Assembly: GCF_024508315.1 (NCBI RefSeq)
Contig: NZ_CP101987.1
Location: 248,001-312,000, forward strand
Reading direction: 5' to 3'
Length of the DNA stretch: 64,000 nucleotides
Source of the DNA: Cellulomonas xiejunii
Lineage (GTDB): Bacteria; Actinomycetota; Actinomycetes; Actinomycetales; Cellulomonadaceae
A program made the translations under genes and the position numbers. Shown in pieces: positions 5,564-13,782 of the stretch. The notes below the pieces were generated by a model. That model saw nothing but the letters and a program-made list of their open reading frames with translations, was not told the DNA's origin and made no database searches. Each line of letters starts with the position of its first letter. Position 1 is the stretch's first letter.

Positions 5564-5591
5564 TTGACGAATCCTCCTCTTCGCGTAGGTT
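5564..5591 (+). promoter_or_regulatory. Promoter of the siderophore operon
   Basis: A -35 like TTGACG (5564-5569) is followed after 16 bases by a -10 like TAGGTT (5586-5591). The desA GTG lies about 75 bases downstream, with AGGGGGAG as ribosome site. The -10 falls inside the first iron-box-like sequence, so a bound repressor would block RNA polymerase. Confidence 0.5.
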
Positions 5592-5623
5592 AGGCCCGCC
5601 TCACTTAGGTGAGCCTCACTCGC
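5586..5623 (+). promoter_or_regulatory. Tandem DtxR/IdeR-type iron-box candidates
   Basis: TAGGTTAGGCCCGCCTCAC (5586-5604) and TTAGGTGAGCCTCACTCGC (5605-5623) both resemble the known 19-base actinobacterial iron box TTAGGTTAGGCTAACCTAA, the first in its left half and the second around a perfect GTGAGCCTCAC palindrome. Together they cover the -10 and likely transcript start. Repression by iron-loaded DtxR/IdeR is inference from the family and the downstream siderophore genes. Confidence 0.6.
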
Positions 5624-5666: not shown

Positions 5667-7121
5667 GTGCACGAGCTGCTGTCCGCCGCGAGCGCCGACG
5701 CCTACGTCGACGCCATGCGCGGCACCGTCGACCGGGTCGCCACCCGGTTCCGCACCACCACCCGCCCGTTCTCCGGTGCGAGCCGCGAGCACCTGCAGTC
5801 GCTCGTCGACGCGGTCGACCTCGACGGCCCGGGTCGCGGCACGGCCGCCGCCCTGCGTGAGGTCGACGAGCTGTTCGCCCAGCACGCCGTCTGGTTCCAC
5901 GACCCGGCGTACACCGCGCACCTCAACTGCCCCGTCGCGCTGCCCGCCGTGGCCGCCGAGGCCGTGCTCGCCGCGATCAACCCCAGCGTCGACACGTACG
6001 ACCAGTCGACCGTCGGCACCCTCATGGAGCGGCGGGTCGTCGCGTGGACGGCAGCGCGCATCGGCTTCCTCGCGGGCGGCGGCGTCTTCACGTCGGGCGG
6101 CACGCAGTCGAACCTCCAGGCGCTGCTGCTGGCGCGCGAGCACGCGCTCGCCACCGCGCCGGGCGTCACGCTGCGCGACCTCGTCGTGCTCGCCACCGCG
6201 TCGAGCCACTTCTCCGTGCAGCGCTCGGCGTACCTGCTGGGCATGGCGCCCGACGCGGTCCGTCTCGTCCCCGTCGACGAGCGCGGCCGCATGCGCCCCG
6301 ACGCCCTGGCGATCGCGCTGCGGCACGTCGCGGACGACGGACGGCACGCAGCGGCCGTCGTCGCCACGGCCGGGACGACCGACCGCGGGTGCGTCGACCC
6401 GCTCGCCGGCATCGCCGACGTGTGCGACACCGCCGACGCGTGGCTGCACGTCGACGCCGCCTACGGCTGCGGCCTCCTCGTCAGCCGCACCCGCCGGCCC
6501 CTGCTCGACGGCATCGAGCGCGCCCGGTCCGTGACCGTCGACTTCCACAAGGCGTTCTTCCAGCCCGTGTCGTCCTCGGCGCTGGTCGTGCGGCACGCAT
6601 CCGACCTGCGGCTCGTCGCGCACCACCACGACTACCTCAACCCCGCGGGCGAGGACGAGCCCAACCAGGTCGACGTCTCCCTGCAGACCACGCGCCGGTT
6701 CGACGCCCTCAAGCTGTGGACCACGCTGCGTGCGCTCGGGGCCGACCGCATCGGGGAGATGGTCGACGCGACCCTCGACCTCGCGGCGGCCGTCCACGCG
6801 CTCGTGGACGGCGACCCGGACCTGCGCCTGCTCGCGCCGACCGACCTGTCGACCGTCCTGTTCCGCTACCAGCCCGACGGCCTCGACGACGCCCGCGCCG
6901 ACGCGCTCGTCGGGCAGGTGCGTCGCGTGCTGTTCGGCTCCGGCCGCGCGCTCGTCGCCCGCACGACCCTCGACGGCCGCCCGTGCCTCAAGCTCACGCT
7001 GCTCAACCCCGACACGACGGTCGCCGACGTGCGGCACGTCCTCGAGCTCGTCCGGCAGGTGGCCGCGGCGCTGCTCGAGGGCGACGACCTGCTGCGCCCC
7101 GACGTGGCGGTGGCGCTGTGA
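5667..7121 (+). CDS. desA: Lysine decarboxylase DesA-like (PLP group II decarboxylase)
   Basis: This 484-residue PLP-dependent decarboxylase would make cadaverine from lysine as the first step of desferrioxamine synthesis. The HVDAAYG motif (residues 261-267) supplies the PLP-binding Asp263, and VDFHKAFFQP places the Schiff-base Lys at residue 295. FTSGGTQSNL (141-150) binds phosphate. Length and motifs match DesA, though the related diaminobutyrate decarboxylases look similar, so substrate rests on context. The GTG start has AGGGGGAG eight bases upstream. It is the first gene of a six-gene run in which each gene overlaps the next. Confidence 0.88.
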   Translation: MHELLSAASADAYVDAMRGTVDRVATRFRTTTRPFSGASREHLQSLVDAVDLDGPGRGTAAALREVDELFAQHAVWFHDPAYTAHLNCPVALPAVAAEAVLAAINPSVDTYDQSTVGTLMERRVVAWTAARIGFLAGGGVFTSGGTQSNLQALLLAREHALATAPGVTLRDLVVLATASSHFSVQRSAYLLGMAPDAVRLVPVDERGRMRPDALAIALRHVADDGRHAAAVVATAGTTDRGCVDPLAGIADVCDTADAWLHVDAAYGCGLLVSRTRRPLLDGIERARSVTVDFHKAFFQPVSSSALVVRHASDLRLVAHHHDYLNPAGEDEPNQVDVSLQTTRRFDALKLWTTLRALGADRIGEMVDATLDLAAAVHALVDGDPDLRLLAPTDLSTVLFRYQPDGLDDARADALVGQVRRVLFGSGRALVARTTLDGRPCLKLTLLNPDTTVADVRHVLELVRQVAAALLEGDDLLRPDVAVAL

Positions 7122-8488
7122 CCGCGACGGCACCCGCCCCGGACGCCCGCGTCCACGACCTCGTCGGGGTCGGCATCGGCCCGTTCAACCTCGGCCTCGC
7201 GGCGCTCGCGGCACCGCTCGACCTCGACACCGTCTTCCTCGACAGGGCCGAGGAGTTCCGCTGGCACCCGGGGATGATGCTCGAGGGCGCCACGATCCAG
7301 GTGCCGTTCCTCGCCGACCTCGTCACCATGGCCGACCCCACCAGCCCGTACTCGTTCCTCGCGTGGCTCAAGGCCACCGGGCGGCTGTACGCGTTCTACA
7401 TCCGCGAGAGCTTCTACCCGCTGCGCGCCGAGTACGACGCGTACTGCCGGTGGGTCGCGGACCAGCTCCCGGCCCTGCGGTGGGGACGGACCGTCACGTC
7501 CGTCGAGGTCGACCCCCACGACGACGACCTGTACGTGGTGCACGCGCGCACCGCCGCGGGTGTCGAGTCGTACCGGACGCGGCACGTCGTCCTCGGGGTC
7601 GGCACGCAGCCCGTCGTCCCGGCGGCGCTGCGCGGGCTCGACGGGCCGGTCGTGCACTCGGCCGACTACCTGACGCACCGCGACGCGCTGCGGGCCGCCG
7701 CGTCGGTCACCGTCGTCGGCTCGGGCCAGTCGGCGGCCGAGGTGTACCGCGACCTGTTGGAGGCCACCGGCCCGGGCGGGCAGCGCCTCGACTGGGTGAC
7801 GCGCTCGCCGCGGTTCTTCCCGATGGAGTACACGAAGCTGACGCTGGAGATGACGTCGCCCGAGTACACCGACCACTTCCACGCCCTTCCCGTGGACGTG
7901 CGCGACCGCCTCACGCGCGAGCAGCGCCACCTGTACAAGGGCATCAGCGCGGACCTCGTCGACGACATCTACGACGCCCTGTACCGCAAGAGCGCCACCG
8001 GCCCCGTGCCCACGACCCTGCTCACCGGCACCGAGGTGCTCGGCGCCACGTGGGACGGCGAGCGGTACACGCTGCGGCTGCGGCACGCGACCGGCGTCGA
8101 GCACGAGCGCACCACCGACGCCCTCGTCCTGGCCACCGGCTACGCCGCACAGGTGCCGGACGTCGTCCTCGGCATCGCGCACCGCCTCGCGTGGGACGAT
8201 CGCGGACGGCTGGACGTCGCCCGCGACTACTCGGTCGACGGCGGACGGAGGAGGGTCTTCGTGCAGAACGGCGAGGAGCACACGCACGGGCTCACCGCGC
8301 CCGACCTCGGCTTCGGCCCGTGGCGGTCGTCCGCGATCCTCGCAGCCGTGTGCGGGCGTGACGTCTACCCGCGTGAGCAGCGGATCGCGTTCCAGGAGTT
8401 CGGCGTGCCCACGGGGACGCACCCGGCGCCCGCAGGCACGGTGCGGGCCGCCGGTGCCGTCGCGCTCGCCGACGAGGCGCACCCGTGA
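7118..8488 (+). CDS. desB: Cadaverine/lysine N-hydroxylase DesB-like
   Basis: This 456-residue flavin-dependent N-monooxygenase of the IucD/PvdA/DesB family would convert cadaverine to N-hydroxycadaverine. The FAD site GVGIGPFN is at residues 17-24, the NADPH site GSGQSAAE at 201-208, and the family ATGY motif at 339-342. The KLTLEM and YKGIS segments are also typical. Its GTG start overlaps the desA stop (GTGA), so translation is probably coupled. Substrate choice (cadaverine rather than lysine or ornithine) follows from the preceding decarboxylase and the DesD-type synthetase downstream. Confidence 0.88.
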   Translation: MTATAPAPDARVHDLVGVGIGPFNLGLAALAAPLDLDTVFLDRAEEFRWHPGMMLEGATIQVPFLADLVTMADPTSPYSFLAWLKATGRLYAFYIRESFYPLRAEYDAYCRWVADQLPALRWGRTVTSVEVDPHDDDLYVVHARTAAGVESYRTRHVVLGVGTQPVVPAALRGLDGPVVHSADYLTHRDALRAAASVTVVGSGQSAAEVYRDLLEATGPGGQRLDWVTRSPRFFPMEYTKLTLEMTSPEYTDHFHALPVDVRDRLTREQRHLYKGISADLVDDIYDALYRKSATGPVPTTLLTGTEVLGATWDGERYTLRLRHATGVEHERTTDALVLATGYAAQVPDVVLGIAHRLAWDDRGRLDVARDYSVDGGRRRVFVQNGEEHTHGLTAPDLGFGPWRSSAILAAVCGRDVYPREQRIAFQEFGVPTGTHPAPAGTVRAAGAVALADEAHP

Positions 8489-9114
8489 CGGACTGGCGCA
8501 CGCAGGCGACCGAGCCGCTGTCCGCGCAGACAGTCCGCGAGGAGGCCTGGAAGCGCATCGGTCCCGTCCGGCTCGACCGCGTCGTCCCCGAACGTGACGC
8601 GCTGACGCTGCACCACTGGCTCACGCACCCCGCGTCGGCGTTCTGGCAGATGACCGAGCTCGGCCTCGACGACGTCCTGGCGTACCAGCAGCGCCTCGCG
8701 GAGTCGACGGACGAGCACGCGTGGATCGGCCGCGTCGCCGGGCGCCCGCGGTTCATGGTCGAGACGTACGACCCGGCGCGTGTCCTGCTCAAGGGCGTCT
8801 ACCGCGCGCGGGCGGGCGACGTCGGCATGCACCTGCTCGTCGCACCGCCGGACGGCCCGCGCCTGCACGGCCTCACCGACGCGGTCATGGCCGCGACCAT
8901 GCGGTTCTGCTTCGGCACGCTGCGCGCGCAGCGCGTCGTCGTCGAGCCCGACGTGCGCAACACCGCCATCGCCGCCAAGAACGCCGCCGCGGGGTTCCGC
9001 GTGGTGCGCGAGATCGACCTGCCCGGCAAGCGTGCCGCGCTGTCGGTGTGCTCCCGCGACGACTTCGCGAGCAGCCGGCTCGGCGCCCGGACCATCCACG
9101 AGGATCACCGATGA
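8485..9114 (+). CDS. desC: Hydroxamate acyltransferase DesC-like
   Basis: This 209-residue protein of the IucB/MbtK/DesC acyltransferase family would transfer succinyl or acetyl from CoA to N-hydroxycadaverine. The N-terminal half has HHWLTHPASAFWQM. The C-terminal GNAT half has RVVVEPDVRNTAIAAKNAAAGF and EIDLPGKRAALSVC, the conserved acyl-CoA and substrate region of the family. It overlaps desB by four bases (GTGA) and desD by four. A second protein of the same family closes the operon, so the two may differ in acyl donor. Confidence 0.85.
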   Translation: MTDWRTQATEPLSAQTVREEAWKRIGPVRLDRVVPERDALTLHHWLTHPASAFWQMTELGLDDVLAYQQRLAESTDEHAWIGRVAGRPRFMVETYDPARVLLKGVYRARAGDVGMHLLVAPPDGPRLHGLTDAVMAATMRFCFGTLRAQRVVVEPDVRNTAIAAKNAAAGFRVVREIDLPGKRAALSVCSRDDFASSRLGARTIHEDHR

Positions 9115-10985
9115 CGCTCACCGACCTGCCCGTCTCGGCGCCCGCCGCGCCACCGTCGTCCGGCCCGCGTCCGGCGCACCGCCCGCCGCACCCCGCCGAC
9201 CACCTGACCCCCGAGCGCCTCGACGCGGCCCAGCGCCACCTCGTCACCAAGGCGCTCTCCGAGCTCGCGCACGAGCGCCTGCTCGCACCGGCGCTCGACC
9301 GCACCACCGGCGCCGGGGACGCGTCGCCGCAGGACGAGCGGGCGTACACCGTCGCGCTCGACGCCCCGTCCGGTGCGCGCACCGTCTACCGGTTCCGCGC
9401 CCGGCGGCTCGCGCTCGAGCACTGGGCGATCGACCGCGCGAGCCTGACGCGCGAGGTCGACGGGCGGGCCGTGCCGCTCGACGTCCTCGACCTCGTCCTG
9501 GAGCTGCAGCCGCTGCTGCGCATCCCCGACGACCTGCTGGCGCTGTACCTGGAGGAGCTGTCGTCGACGCTCGCGAGCGCCGCGTACCGGCGCGCGCACG
9601 GCGGTCCGACGAGCGCCGAGCTGCTCGACGCCGGCCTGGCAACCGTCGAGCAGGCGATGACCGAGGGGCACCCGTCGTTCGTCGCGAACAACGGCCGCAT
9701 CGGGTACGGCGTGAGCGAGCACGACGCGTACGCCCCCGAGGCGGGCCGGCCCGTGCGGCTCGTGTGGCTCGCCGTGCGGCGGGCCGTCAGCCACGTCGCG
9801 ACCGGTGCGGGCCTCACCGAGGACGCGCTGTACCGGCACGAGCTCGACGAGTCGACGCGCGAGCGCTTCACGGACCACCTGCACGGCCTGGGCCTCGACC
9901 CCGCCGACTACCGCTACCTGCCCGTGCACCCGTGGCAGTGGGAGCACCGCGTCGCGGTGACGTTCGCACCCGACGTGGCCCGTCGCGACCTCGTCCTGCT
10001 GGGCGAGTCCGACGACGTCTACCGCGCGCAGCAGTCGGTCCGCACGTTCCTCAACGTCGACCGCCCCGACCGGCACTACGTGAAGACGGCCGTCGCGATC
10101 CAGAACATGGGGTTCCTGCGCGGCCTGTCCCCGGCGTACATGCGCGCGACGCCCGCGATCAACGACTGGGTCGCGGACCTCGTGGACACGGACCCCGAGC
10201 TCGTCGCCTGCGGGGTGCGCGTGCTGCGCGAGCGCGCGTCCATCGGCTACACCGGCGACGTCTACCACCGCACCCCGCGGCCCAACGCGCACCGCAAGAT
10301 GCTCGCTGCGCTGTGGCGTGAGCAGCCGTTCGCGTTCCTCGCGCCGGGGCAGCGCGCGACGACGATGGCGGCGCTGCTTCACCGGGACGCGTCCGGTGAC
10401 GCCTACGCGACCGCGGCCGTCCGCGCGTCCGGCCTCGACCCGGCCGACTGGTTGCGCGCCTACCTGCGCGTCTACCTGCGTCCGCTCGTGCACTGCCTGC
10501 GCGCGCACGACCTGGCGTTCATGCCGCACGGCGAGAACGTGCTGATCGTGTGGCAGGACCACGTGCCGGTCGGCGCGCTGCTCAAGGACATCGGCGAGGA
10601 GGTCGCCGTCCTGTCGAGGCGCCCGCTGCCGCCGGACGTCGAGCGCGTCCGTGCCGTCGTCGACGACGACGAGAAGGCGCTGGCGATCTTCACCGACGTG
10701 TTCGACGGCGTCCTGCGGCACCTCGCCGCGATCCTCGTCACCGACGGCGTGCTGGCGGAGGACACGTTCTGGGGCGTCGTCGCCGAGACGATCGACGCGC
10801 ACCACGCCGACCACCCGGACCTGCCGTCGGGGGTCGACCTGCGCGCGCCGCGGTTCGCGCACTCGTGCCTCAACCGCCTGCAGCTGCGCAACACGCTGCA
10901 GATGGTGGACCTGGCGGACCAGTCGTCGTCCCTCATCTACGCCGGGACGCTGGCCAACCCGGTCGCGCGCGACGGCGGTGCGTGA
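9111..10985 (+). CDS. desD: NIS siderophore synthetase DesD-like (IucA/IucC family)
   Basis: This 624-residue NRPS-independent siderophore synthetase would oligomerise and macrocyclise N-hydroxy-N-succinylcadaverine with ATP. Family signatures are the N-terminal GHPSFVANNGRIGYG (residues 186-200), YLPVHPWQWEH (about 269-279), a nucleotide-binding HYVKTAVAIQNMG region (about 322-334), and LAFMPHGENVLIVWQ in the C-terminal FhuF-like part (HGEN near 473-476). Length is normal. The ATG overlaps desC as ATGA. No export or uptake genes follow within the window. Confidence 0.9.
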   Translation: MTLTDLPVSAPAAPPSSGPRPAHRPPHPADHLTPERLDAAQRHLVTKALSELAHERLLAPALDRTTGAGDASPQDERAYTVALDAPSGARTVYRFRARRLALEHWAIDRASLTREVDGRAVPLDVLDLVLELQPLLRIPDDLLALYLEELSSTLASAAYRRAHGGPTSAELLDAGLATVEQAMTEGHPSFVANNGRIGYGVSEHDAYAPEAGRPVRLVWLAVRRAVSHVATGAGLTEDALYRHELDESTRERFTDHLHGLGLDPADYRYLPVHPWQWEHRVAVTFAPDVARRDLVLLGESDDVYRAQQSVRTFLNVDRPDRHYVKTAVAIQNMGFLRGLSPAYMRATPAINDWVADLVDTDPELVACGVRVLRERASIGYTGDVYHRTPRPNAHRKMLAALWREQPFAFLAPGQRATTMAALLHRDASGDAYATAAVRASGLDPADWLRAYLRVYLRPLVHCLRAHDLAFMPHGENVLIVWQDHVPVGALLKDIGEEVAVLSRRPLPPDVERVRAVVDDDEKALAIFTDVFDGVLRHLAAILVTDGVLAEDTFWGVVAETIDAHHADHPDLPSGVDLRAPRFAHSCLNRLQLRNTLQMVDLADQSSSLIYAGTLANPVARDGGA

Positions 10986-13171
10986 TGGCGTTCGAGGTCT
11001 TCCGGGACGACTGGGGCGTGCCGCACGTGCGCGCGTCCGACGAGCACTCCCTCGCGTACGGGCAGGGCTGGGTGACCGCGCGGGACCGCACGTGGCAGGT
11101 GCAGGCCGACCGTTGGCGTGCCGAGGGCCGGCTCGCCGAGCACCTCGGTGACGGCGGCATCGCGTGGGACGTCGTCGCGCACCGCCTGCGGCTGCCGGAC
11201 CTGGCGCAACGCGCGTACGCCGCGCTCGGCGACGACGACCGCGCGTGGGTCGACGCGTACACGGCCGGGGTGAACGCCGGGCTCGCATCGTCGTCGCCGC
11301 CGGTCGAGGTCGACGAGCTCGACAGGGTGCTCGGCGGCACCACGCCCGACGACCCGTGGCCCGCGTGGGCGCCGCTGGGCGTCTTCCTCGTCAACCACGC
11401 GCTGTTCTCGACGTTCCCGCGCGTGCTGTGGCACGACCACCTGGTGCGCGCCGCCCGGTACTCCGGTCACCCCGGGCTCGCCGACGTCGACCCCCTGGAC
11501 CTCGTGCGGCTGTTCGACCCTGCCGCCGACGGGCCGACCAGCGGGTCCAACGCGTGGGCCCTGCACGGCTCGCGGACCGCGACGGGTGTGCCGCTGCTCG
11601 CGGGCGACCCGCACCGCGTCCTGGAGCTGCCCGGGCCGTACCAGCAGATCCGCCTCGCGTGCCCCGAGTACGACGTCCTCGGGCTCGCGTTCCCCGGTGT
11701 CCCCGGGCTGCCGCACTTCGGTCACACCGGCACCGCCGCGTGGGGCATCACCAACGCCGCCGCGCACGCCGCCGAGCTGTACCGCGAGCTGCTGCTGCGC
11801 GACGACGACGGGTGGCAGGCGTTCGGCCCGCACGGCGTGGAGCCCGTCACCTCCCACACCGTGCACGTGCGCGTACGTGGCGGCGAGCCGCTGACGGTCG
11901 ACGTCCTGGAGACCGCCCGCGGGCCCGTCGTCGTGCGGGGCATGCCGCCGGGACGTCCCGTCGACCAGGACGGCGTCGTCACCGGAGCGCTGCCGCGCGC
12001 CGGGCTCGAGGAGGCGCGGTCCGTGCGGCTGCAGGCGCAGGTCGACGCGGACCTCGGGTTCGCGTGCCTGCGCCCGCTGCTGCGCGCCCGCACGGCGCAC
12101 GACGTCGCCGCGGCGCTCACCGGCTGGGTCGACCCCGTCAACCGCGTCCTGGCCGCCGACTCGACGGGGACGGTGCTGACGTTCGACGCGGGCCGCGTGG
12201 CCGACCGCGCGCCGGACGACCGCCTGCTGTCGTTGCGCGCGTGGGACCCCACGCACGCCCCGCGTCCGTGGCGCGCCCTGGCCGCGCCGGGCGAGGTCAC
12301 GGACGTCGCCGTCGACGCGAACGAGCGACCGGCCGCCGCGGACCGCGACCACGGCAGCGTCTACGCACCGGACCGCGCGGCCCGCATCGCCGACCTGCTC
12401 GCCGGGCGGGCGGCGTGGCACGTCGGCGACCTCGGTGACGTCCACGGCGACACGCACTGGGCGGGGGCGGGACGCTTGCTGCGGCACGTCGCGGGTCTCG
12501 ACGATCTGAGCCCGGCGGCGGCCGCCGTCCGTGACGGGCTGCTGGCGTGGGACCTGCACATGGCCGCGGAGTCCCCGCAGGCCGCGCTGCTCGCGGACCT
12601 GCGCGCCGTGCTGGTCGCCCGCCTCGTCGACGAGCCGGCCGTCAGCGCGCTCGGGGCCTCGCACTTCGCCGGCCCGGCGTTCGACGCGTGGTTCAGCCTG
12701 CGCGGGCGGGTCGGGGCGGCGCTGCCCGCGCTGCTCGGACGTGCCGACCTGGGCATCGACGGGCCTGCGCACGTGCGGGCCGCGCTGGAGGAGGTCGCCG
12801 CGCTCGCGGACGGCGGCACCTGGGGCGCGCGGCACACCGTGCTCCCGGCCCACCTGCTGGCGGACGTGCCGGGGGCGGCCGTGCCCGTCGTCCCGGCGCT
12901 GCCGCTCGGCGGTGACCAGGACACCGTGCGCTGCACCGGGACGGTCCCCGGCGTGACCGACGGCGCCTTCCGCGGCTCGGTGGCCCGGTGGGTGTGGGAC
13001 CTGCAGGACCGCTCGCGCAGCCGCTGGGGAGTGCCGTTCGGCAGCAGCGGTGACCCGCGCAGCCCGCACTTCGCGGACCAGCACGCGACGTGGGCGGTGG
13101 CGGGGACCGTCGAGGTCGTGACCGACTGGGCGCGGCTGACCCCCGAGCCGCCGGCGGGGGAGGGGGAGTGA
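10985..13171 (+). CDS. Penicillin-acylase-like Ntn hydrolase in the siderophore operon
   Basis: This 728-residue penicillin acylase (S45) family protein shares one base with the desD stop (TGATG). The alpha-chain region starts at once with FRDDWGVPHVRASDEHSLAYGQGW. TSGSNAW gives Ser188 as the expected autocatalytic N-terminal nucleophile of the beta chain, followed by the GDPHR motif. Unlike most secreted acylases, including PvdQ of Pseudomonas, it shows no signal peptide, so it is probably cytoplasmic. Penicillin-amidase-like genes are known beside some Streptomyces desferrioxamine clusters. Here it may trim, load or edit an N-acyl group on the siderophore, which is inference. Confidence 0.82.
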   Translation: MAFEVFRDDWGVPHVRASDEHSLAYGQGWVTARDRTWQVQADRWRAEGRLAEHLGDGGIAWDVVAHRLRLPDLAQRAYAALGDDDRAWVDAYTAGVNAGLASSSPPVEVDELDRVLGGTTPDDPWPAWAPLGVFLVNHALFSTFPRVLWHDHLVRAARYSGHPGLADVDPLDLVRLFDPAADGPTSGSNAWALHGSRTATGVPLLAGDPHRVLELPGPYQQIRLACPEYDVLGLAFPGVPGLPHFGHTGTAAWGITNAAAHAAELYRELLLRDDDGWQAFGPHGVEPVTSHTVHVRVRGGEPLTVDVLETARGPVVVRGMPPGRPVDQDGVVTGALPRAGLEEARSVRLQAQVDADLGFACLRPLLRARTAHDVAAALTGWVDPVNRVLAADSTGTVLTFDAGRVADRAPDDRLLSLRAWDPTHAPRPWRALAAPGEVTDVAVDANERPAAADRDHGSVYAPDRAARIADLLAGRAAWHVGDLGDVHGDTHWAGAGRLLRHVAGLDDLSPAAAAVRDGLLAWDLHMAAESPQAALLADLRAVLVARLVDEPAVSALGASHFAGPAFDAWFSLRGRVGAALPALLGRADLGIDGPAHVRAALEEVAALADGGTWGARHTVLPAHLLADVPGAAVPVVPALPLGGDQDTVRCTGTVPGVTDGAFRGSVARWVWDLQDRSRSRWGVPFGSSGDPRSPHFADQHATWAVAGTVEVVTDWARLTPEPPAGEGE

Positions 13172-13782
13172 GCGTCGGGACGGGCGCGGTGGGCCTGACG
13201 GCGGCGTGGGCCGGGCGCCCCGGCGGGTCCGTGCTCGACGAGCGGTCCGTCGACGGCCTCGGCGTGCTGACCACCGCGGTGCTCGACCTCGATGCCGACA
13301 TCCCGACGCTGCACGCCTGGTGCACGGCCCGCGGCACGGCGTTCTGGGGGCTGGGCGGGCTGTCGGTCGACGAGCTCCGGGAGACCTACGCGGTGGTCGA
13401 CGCGATGGCGCACCACCACGCGCTGCTCGTGCGGATCGACGGTGCGCCGGTTGCGCTCGTGCAGGCGTACGAGCCCGCGCACGACCCGGTGGGGGAGGTG
13501 TACGACGTGCAGCCCGGCGACCTCGGCGCGCACGTGCTCGTCGGTGCCCGGCCCCCGCGGCCGGTCACGGGCTACTCCGCGCGGCTCTTGCGCGAGATGT
13601 GCCAGGTGCTGGCGGACGGCACGGGCGCGACACGAATCGTCGGCGAGCCCGACGCCCGCAACACCGCTCTGCTGCGCGTGGTCGAACGGGTCGGCTTCAC
13701 CCTCGGCCCCGAGGTCGACCTGCCGACCAAGCGAGCGCGCCTGACGTTCTACGAGGTCACGCCCCAGCCGTCGGTGAGCTAG
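13168..13782 (+). CDS. Second IucB/DesC-type acyltransferase
   Basis: This 204-residue protein shares with the DesC-like protein upstream the C-terminal pattern GEPDARNTALLRVVERVGF followed by EVDLPTKRARLTFYE, so it belongs to the same siderophore acyltransferase family. The N-terminal FWGLGGLSVDELRETYAVVD also parallels that family. The GTG start overlaps the acylase stop by four bases. The 3' end overlaps the convergent hydrolase gene by four bases and closes the operon. A different acyl donor for capping or for a mixed siderophore is a reasonable but untested role. Confidence 0.8.
   Translation: MSVGTGAVGLTAAWAGRPGGSVLDERSVDGLGVLTTAVLDLDADIPTLHAWCTARGTAFWGLGGLSVDELRETYAVVDAMAHHHALLVRIDGAPVALVQAYEPAHDPVGEVYDVQPGDLGAHVLVGARPPRPVTGYSARLLREMCQVLADGTGATRIVGEPDARNTALLRVVERVGFTLGPEVDLPTKRARLTFYEVTPQPSVS

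Follow-up and report, generated by a model that had tools for sequence, protein, structure and literature searches.

The subject of this work is a penicillin-acylase-like gene at positions 10985..13171 of a 64,000-nucleotide stretch of the Cellulomonas xiejunii genome (contig NZ_CP101987.1, positions 248,001 to 312,000 of the forward strand), hereafter called the window. The gene is desG, its 3' neighbour is desH, and it is an ordinary member of an intact desABCDGH operon. Together, DesG and DesH probably replace the succinyl group of a desferrioxamine (DFO) building block by acetyl; the B form of desferrioxamine is an iron-overload drug. The gene is not new. An article of 2025 in PLoS Biology (PMC12161575, cited here from excerpts of its text) already describes desG and desH, ties both to desferrioxamine and proposes roles for them. 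The central point of a preliminary description of the locus, made from the sequence alone, was thus in print, and the novelty that it implied is not supported.

According to those excerpts, inactivation of desG (SCO4049) in Streptomyces coelicolor lowered DFO B about 1000-fold, while inactivation of desH (SCO4050) lowered it about 16-fold; DFO E increased in desG or desH mutants, and complementation gave DFO B back. The proposal made there is that DesG desuccinylates N-hydroxy-N-succinylcadaverine and that DesH acetylates the product. Nine reported producers without desGH made uncapped DFOs only, and desG, where present, is found either alongside the DFO genes or at a locus of its own under DmdR1 control (PMC12161575, citing Cruz-Morales 2017). 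The rule used in that article to recognize desGH, a PF01804 gene within 1 kb of a PF13523 gene, fits the window pair, as the GTG start of desH overlaps the stop codon of desG by 4 bases; in addition, desG adjoins desABCD and is thus linked to it. Like the window pair, DesG and DesH of S. coelicolor consist of a PF01804 amidase and, next to it, a GNAT of PF13523, both with ties to desABCD; control by an iron regulator may be a further common trait. In S. coelicolor, however, they belong to a separate desJGH locus, whereas in the window desG and desH are found inside the desABCD operon itself. The comparison with Streptomyces was made with six named DesG loci and gave 44-50% identity over the best segment. 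The closest named relative is Cellulomonas sp. KH9, with 97% identity over the best segment.

The six genes desA-B-C-D-G-H extend over 5667-13782, every one overlapping its successor. The features of the locus are as follows:

5585..5623, no strand assigned: overlapping cluster of iron-box-like (DtxR/DmdR1-type) sites upstream of desA, by graded consensus score
5667..7121, + strand: desA, pyridoxal phosphate-dependent decarboxylase (NCBIfam kin; gene order as in relatives)
7118..8488, + strand: desB, N-hydroxylase (NCBIfam kin)
8485..9114, + strand: desC, GNAT acyltransferase (position between desB and desD; DesC/DesH split among loci)
9111..10985, + strand: desD, NRPS-independent siderophore (NIS) synthetase (NCBIfam kin; co-occurs with desG)
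10985..13171, + strand: desG, penicillin-acylase-family N-terminal nucleophile (Ntn) hydrolase without visible signal peptide (PF01804)
11546..11548, + strand: Ser188 codon, predicted Ser1beta nucleophile with cleavage at G187|S188 (110/110 rows; start of the 35sz beta chain)
11615..11617, + strand: Arg211 codon (Arg24beta), acyl pocket (110/110; Arg in 35sz, 4hsr and D-succinylase)
11714..11716, + strand: His244 codon (His57beta) (110/110; common to 35sz and 4hsr)
12320..12322, + strand: Asn446 codon, oxyanion-hole Asn, Asn242beta of 4hsr (110/110 rows, 5/5 paralogues)
13168..13782, + strand: desH, GNAT acyltransferase, predicted to acetylate N-hydroxycadaverine (PF13523; adjoins DesG in relatives)

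The DesG product has 728 amino acids, and its sole Pfam match is PF01804 (Penicil_amidase; E 8e-133, residues 4-718). DesH has 204 amino acids and matches PF13523 with E 1.2e-40. The coordinates of desG given in the preliminary description and the TGATG overlap with desD were correct, and the frame is confirmed: the desD stop TGA (10983-10985) and the desG start ATG (10985-10987) have one base in common. The same description had rightly placed desG after desD, but missed both the PF13523 neighbour on its 3' side and the overlaps that join all six genes.

In the model that we regard as likely, DesG would belong to an iron-regulated operon, and its precursor would fold in the cytoplasm and cleave itself at Gly187|Ser188. 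Judging from residue conservation and from a solved relative in its mature form, the resulting alpha/beta Ntn amidase would use Ser1beta as nucleophile. A pocket containing Arg24beta would accept a carboxylate-terminated acyl group. DesG would strip succinyl from the N-hydroxy-N-succinylcadaverine made by DesC; DesH would acetylate the freed N-hydroxycadaverine, and DesD would cap linear desferrioxamine B with the acetylated monomer, where it would otherwise make only the ring-shaped desferrioxamine E. The in vivo effect comes from S. coelicolor, and desuccinylation is a proposal in the excerpts of PMC12161575; orthology and gene order would extend the model to C. xiejunii.

Gene content and gene order in relatives support the presence of the published DesG/DesH system at the window locus. 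We searched 121 genomes of the family with a DesG-type cut-off of E 5.9e-70 or better, chosen after seeing the gap that follows (next match, 1.4e-26), and with a DesD threshold of E<=1e-60. DesG-type matches were found in 42 genomes and DesD in 44. All 42 DesG genomes had DesD, 42 of the 44 DesD genomes had DesG, and 77 had neither (Fisher p 1.5e-30, with no correction for descent). The two genomes with DesD and no DesG-type match are G018 and G092. Besides the window's own locus, which is the 42nd, 41 family loci were fetched. In 39 of them, DesD, DesG and DesH shared a strand and were less than 600 bp apart; the other two are L112, with DesD-DesG up to the contig end, and L114, with DesG-DesH from the contig start. 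DesG came after DesD in 40/41 loci, and DesH adjoined DesG in 40/41.

The wider class set (394 genomes; DesG threshold E<=1e-30, DesD threshold E<=1e-130) was tallied by hand, and its DesG gap is less clean than that of the family, with G146 (3.3e-31) included and G490 (9.7e-28) excluded. Sixty-five genomes passed the DesG threshold, four of which (G509, G450, G140 and G162) have matches that resemble paralogues. DesD was present in 57 of the other 61, the four without it being G438, G183, G339 and G246; conversely, 28 of the 85 class genomes with DesD lacked DesG at the threshold. The 63 class loci comprised 14 with DesD-DesG-DesH, 36 with DesG-DesH but no adjacent DesD, 2 with DesD-DesG and no detected DesH, and 11 with neither neighbour. 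The last set includes the four paralogues L168, L174, L175 and L176, as well as L158, where DesD lies ~8 kb upstream, just beyond the fetched stretch. Fusions of DesG and DesH were detected in 11/41 family loci and 8/63 class loci. Two GNATs, with best matches split between DesC and DesH of the window, were found in 63 of 100 examined loci, and the DesH-type GNAT was the one nearer to DesG in 63/63. In a quick tree of 53 rows, with several open forks and long-branch warnings, a 46-row group at 100* united the window DesG with the other rows linked to DesG-DesH; it contained all 36 of these, 6 orphans, 3 rows of f11, and the solved protein 35sz.

Orphan DesG-like genes were seen in genomes of f34 (L142, L148, L151, L156 and L169), with no adjacent DesH detected; the first three belong to G183, G339 and G246, genomes without a DesD match. 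By eye, their neighbours are pirin, MarR/GNAT, FAD-oxidoreductase, oligoribonuclease and adenosine deaminase genes. Since these orphans retain Arg24beta and His57beta, another substrate or role is possible for them. Single stop codons were present within the DesG-like matches of G183, G339 and G484. A further case is L119:7992-10079 in G438, a DesG near to those with des linkage (53% identity) in a genome without a DesD match. No DesA-D or DesH match was found within its 18-kb locus, while in the congener G430 (L121) the operon is complete; the gene is perhaps a remnant left by loss of the operon.

The active site was examined in 110 rows, of which 107 are distinct: the window protein, 13 of 14 named loci and 96 of 104 loci with G handles. 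L010, L112, L114, L116 and L162 were left out because of a broken frame or a cut contig, and the paralogues L168, L174, L175, L176 and L180 were kept apart. The features expected of an S45 Ntn hydrolase (Ser1beta after Gly, an oxyanion Asn and a conserved Arg) are all found in DesG. G187, S188 and N189 were invariant in 110/110 rows, which bears out the nucleophile motif at Ser188 reported in the preliminary description. Equally invariant were R464, R467 and N446, the latter aligned with Asn242beta of PDB 4hsr and found also in 5/5 paralogues.

Positions of the acyl pocket, as read from sequence alignment, were likewise constant: beta24 is Arg, beta32 Tyr and beta57 His, each in 110/110 rows. 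Arg24 is common to DesG, 35sz, 4hsr and D-succinylase, while an explicit alignment places Phe at this position in Escherichia coli penicillin G acylase. His57 is common to DesG, 35sz and 4hsr only, and is inserted relative to D-succinylase and penicillin G acylase. In the excerpts of PMC6712217, simulations of the Pseudomonas N176 cephalosporin/glutaryl acylase (4HSR) indicate that R24, Y32, H57, H70, H178, N242 and Y467, all of the beta chain, stabilise the substrate near attack. DesG shares Ser1beta, His23beta, Arg24beta, Tyr32beta, His57beta and Asn242beta with this enzyme, but has Asn in place of His70beta in 110/110 rows, and the substrate of 4HSR is a beta-lactam side chain. A table seen in part in PMC11241749 lists F24, L193, L193, F24, F24, R24, W24, V24, R305 and F24 at the beta24 position; by their residue numbers, the two Arg columns would be the 4HSR type and D-succinylase, although the column heads lie outside the excerpt. 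Because beta24 is Arg, as in glutaryl-cephalosporin acylase and D-succinylase, a carboxylate-ended acyl group such as succinyl appears to be favoured over phenylacetyl, without this being proof. Arg24beta adds some support for a desuccinylating role of DesG. No mention of this invariant arginine was found in the open-licence literature searched on DesG.

The closest solved chains to DesG are those of 35sz, deposited as 'Penicillin acylase family protein' (beta chain, E 3.7e-88). The 532 aligned residues of its beta chain are letter for letter those of the L160 protein (L160:8001-10211, in G151), which has 37% identity to the protein of the window, shares Arg24 and His57 with it, and is encoded just after a DesD homologue. 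The L160 locus also has DesA- and DesB-like genes and, by eye, a carrier-protein-like gene. Judged by this identity, 35sz is a homologue of DesG that belongs to a siderophore cluster, an addition to the published record that we found; neither a paper on 35sz nor its identification as a DesG homologue was found in the open-licence literature searched. The deposited beta chain starts at the Ser aligned with Ser188, and hence a relative of DesG has been found cleaved at the G|S junction. The L160 locus resembles the nocardichelin type described for a Gordonia in the excerpts of PMC12161575, a naming that is our own. Among solved structures, glutaryl acylase and D-succinylase (7EBY/7EA4) come next. 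The latter, by its name a succinyl-removing enzyme, has Arg at beta24 like DesG, but lacks His57beta and is a more remote match to the DesG profile (E 1.1e-70).

A cytoplasmic location is suggested by a crude hydropathy scan of possible N-terminal extensions. A 12-residue mean above the threshold of 1.8 was found in 0/99 DesG-type loci with the N-terminus covered, the highest value being 1.62 (L131), although the positive control was thin, as only 1 of 5 paralogues exceeded 1.8 (L180, of the same genome as the window, with 2.07). An in-frame stop lay within 15 codons upstream of DesG in 28/99 loci. A looser scan, extending up to 60 codons upstream with no start codon required, gave values >1.8 in the DesG loci L079, L116, L131 and L166, taken as out-of-gene sequence, and also in L175, L176 and L180. 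In the window, in-frame starts within 60 codons upstream of desG are limited to two GTGs inside desD, at distances of 1 and 40 codons from the ATG. The absence of a visible signal peptide noted in the preliminary description is thereby upheld, and its picture of a cytoplasmic, co-expressed and active-looking acylase of the desferrioxamine pathway is supported.

Evidence for iron regulation was sought by scoring the window against a 19-bp consensus. The six best scores all fell at 5585-5623, in three overlapping positions on both strands, and the best was 14/18 at 5585. In 30 shuffles the top five maxima were 13; the score is of modest weight because the shuffles were mononucleotide and single-strand. 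Neither the full consensus with 3 mismatches nor a looser pattern had a match in the window. Across loci, scores of at least 13 were found upstream of desA in 70/73, and upstream of DesG in 35/119, namely those where DesG does not follow DesD, with 8 to 11 in the rest. This is the pattern predicted by one promoter per operon.

Several observations weigh against the proposed succinyl-for-acetyl exchange or against our reading of the pocket. The model does not fully explain why loss of desG hurts more than loss of desH. In L159 and L160, the locus of 35sz, DesD and DesG occur without a detected DesH, unlike in the window, and the excerpts of PMC12161575 describe a Gordonia with desG and without desH that makes capped DFOs. 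His57 is missing from D-succinylase, itself a succinyl-removing enzyme. Arg24 and His57 are also found in the DesD-less f34 orphans L119, L142, L148 and L151 and in the paralogues L168 and L174; the two residues mark, therefore, a clade wider than the pathway. Finally, the iron box upstream of desA is weak.

Other readings of DesG were also considered. One is that DesG acts after DesD, trimming the terminal succinyl of linear dimers and trimers, or more generally of linear succinyl-ended desferrioxamines as well as the monomer, with DesH capping the end with acetyl and ring closure blocked. A carboxylate-reading pocket would take any terminal succinyl hydroxamate, fusions of DesG and DesH are frequent, and DFO E rises upon loss of DesG; on the other hand, the model in the excerpts of PMC12161575 acts on the monomer, and we give chain trimming a small chance. 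A slightly smaller one is given to the view that DesG works in the synthetic direction and adds phenylacetyl or other aryl groups to desferrioxamine. Such capping, also raised in the preliminary description, is an older hypothesis: desG was initially thought to give phenylacetic-acid-capped derivatives (PMC12161575, citing Cruz-Morales et al. 2017). Phe57 of penicillin G acylase aligns with beta58 of DesG, which is Phe in 108/110 rows and Tyr in 2/110. As this counterpart is retained, only the replacement of Phe24 by Arg, seen in every row, counts against a phenylacetyl pocket, and we take it as moderate evidence.

A role in the degradation or recycling of imported ferrioxamines, or in maturation of the PvdQ kind, seems very improbable. 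PvdQ is periplasmic. It shares with DesG the S45 Ntn superfamily and a siderophore pathway, and orphan DesG-like genes do occur in DesD-less genomes; however, DesG scores 43 bits with the PvdQ model NF051460, far under the cut-off of 950, and lacks a signal peptide in the hydropathy scan, and DFO B falls upon loss of DesG (PMC12161575, excerpts). The comparison with PvdQ drawn in the preliminary description holds at superfamily level only. We rank aryl capping low, as we do maturation of the PvdQ kind and a part in scavenging siderophores. Among the roles that it had suggested, removal of a protecting acyl group found no support. Editing of hydroxamates in the cytoplasm comes near the published model, in which DesG acts on the succinyl monomer and DesH then acetylates it, giving acetyl-capped desferrioxamine B.

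For the remaining genes of the operon, the closest NCBIfam models are DABADecarRhbB for desA (422 bits, under its cut-off of 900) and histamine N-monooxygenase for desB (380 bits, under 700). DesD has SbnF, SbnC and FslA as kin, every one under the cut-off, and no NCBIfam model matched desC. From knowledge of the pathway, we take the reaction of DesA to be the conversion of lysine to cadaverine, and DesC to be the succinylating acyltransferase. A single further PF01804 match exists in the 4.19-Mb single-contig genome, at C1:909279-911648 (L180, L181), outside the window; it has an N-terminal hydrophobic stretch and Met at beta24, and is probably an exported, different acylase.

If the exchange of succinyl for acetyl by DesG and DesH takes place as proposed, G018 and G092 are expected to make uncapped desferrioxamines only. 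Arg24beta offers an argument at residue level, cheap to test, that the acyl substrate ends in a carboxylate; through its link to a DesG homologue, 35sz gives a structure for such a test. Should DesG also edit chain ends, DesD could no longer close the ring once the terminal carboxylate is gone, and the decision between ring and chain would be made after assembly by a carboxylate-reading arginine pocket. As far as the excerpts of PMC12161575 go, it is the DesG/DesH pair that largely sets the amount of desferrioxamine B made.

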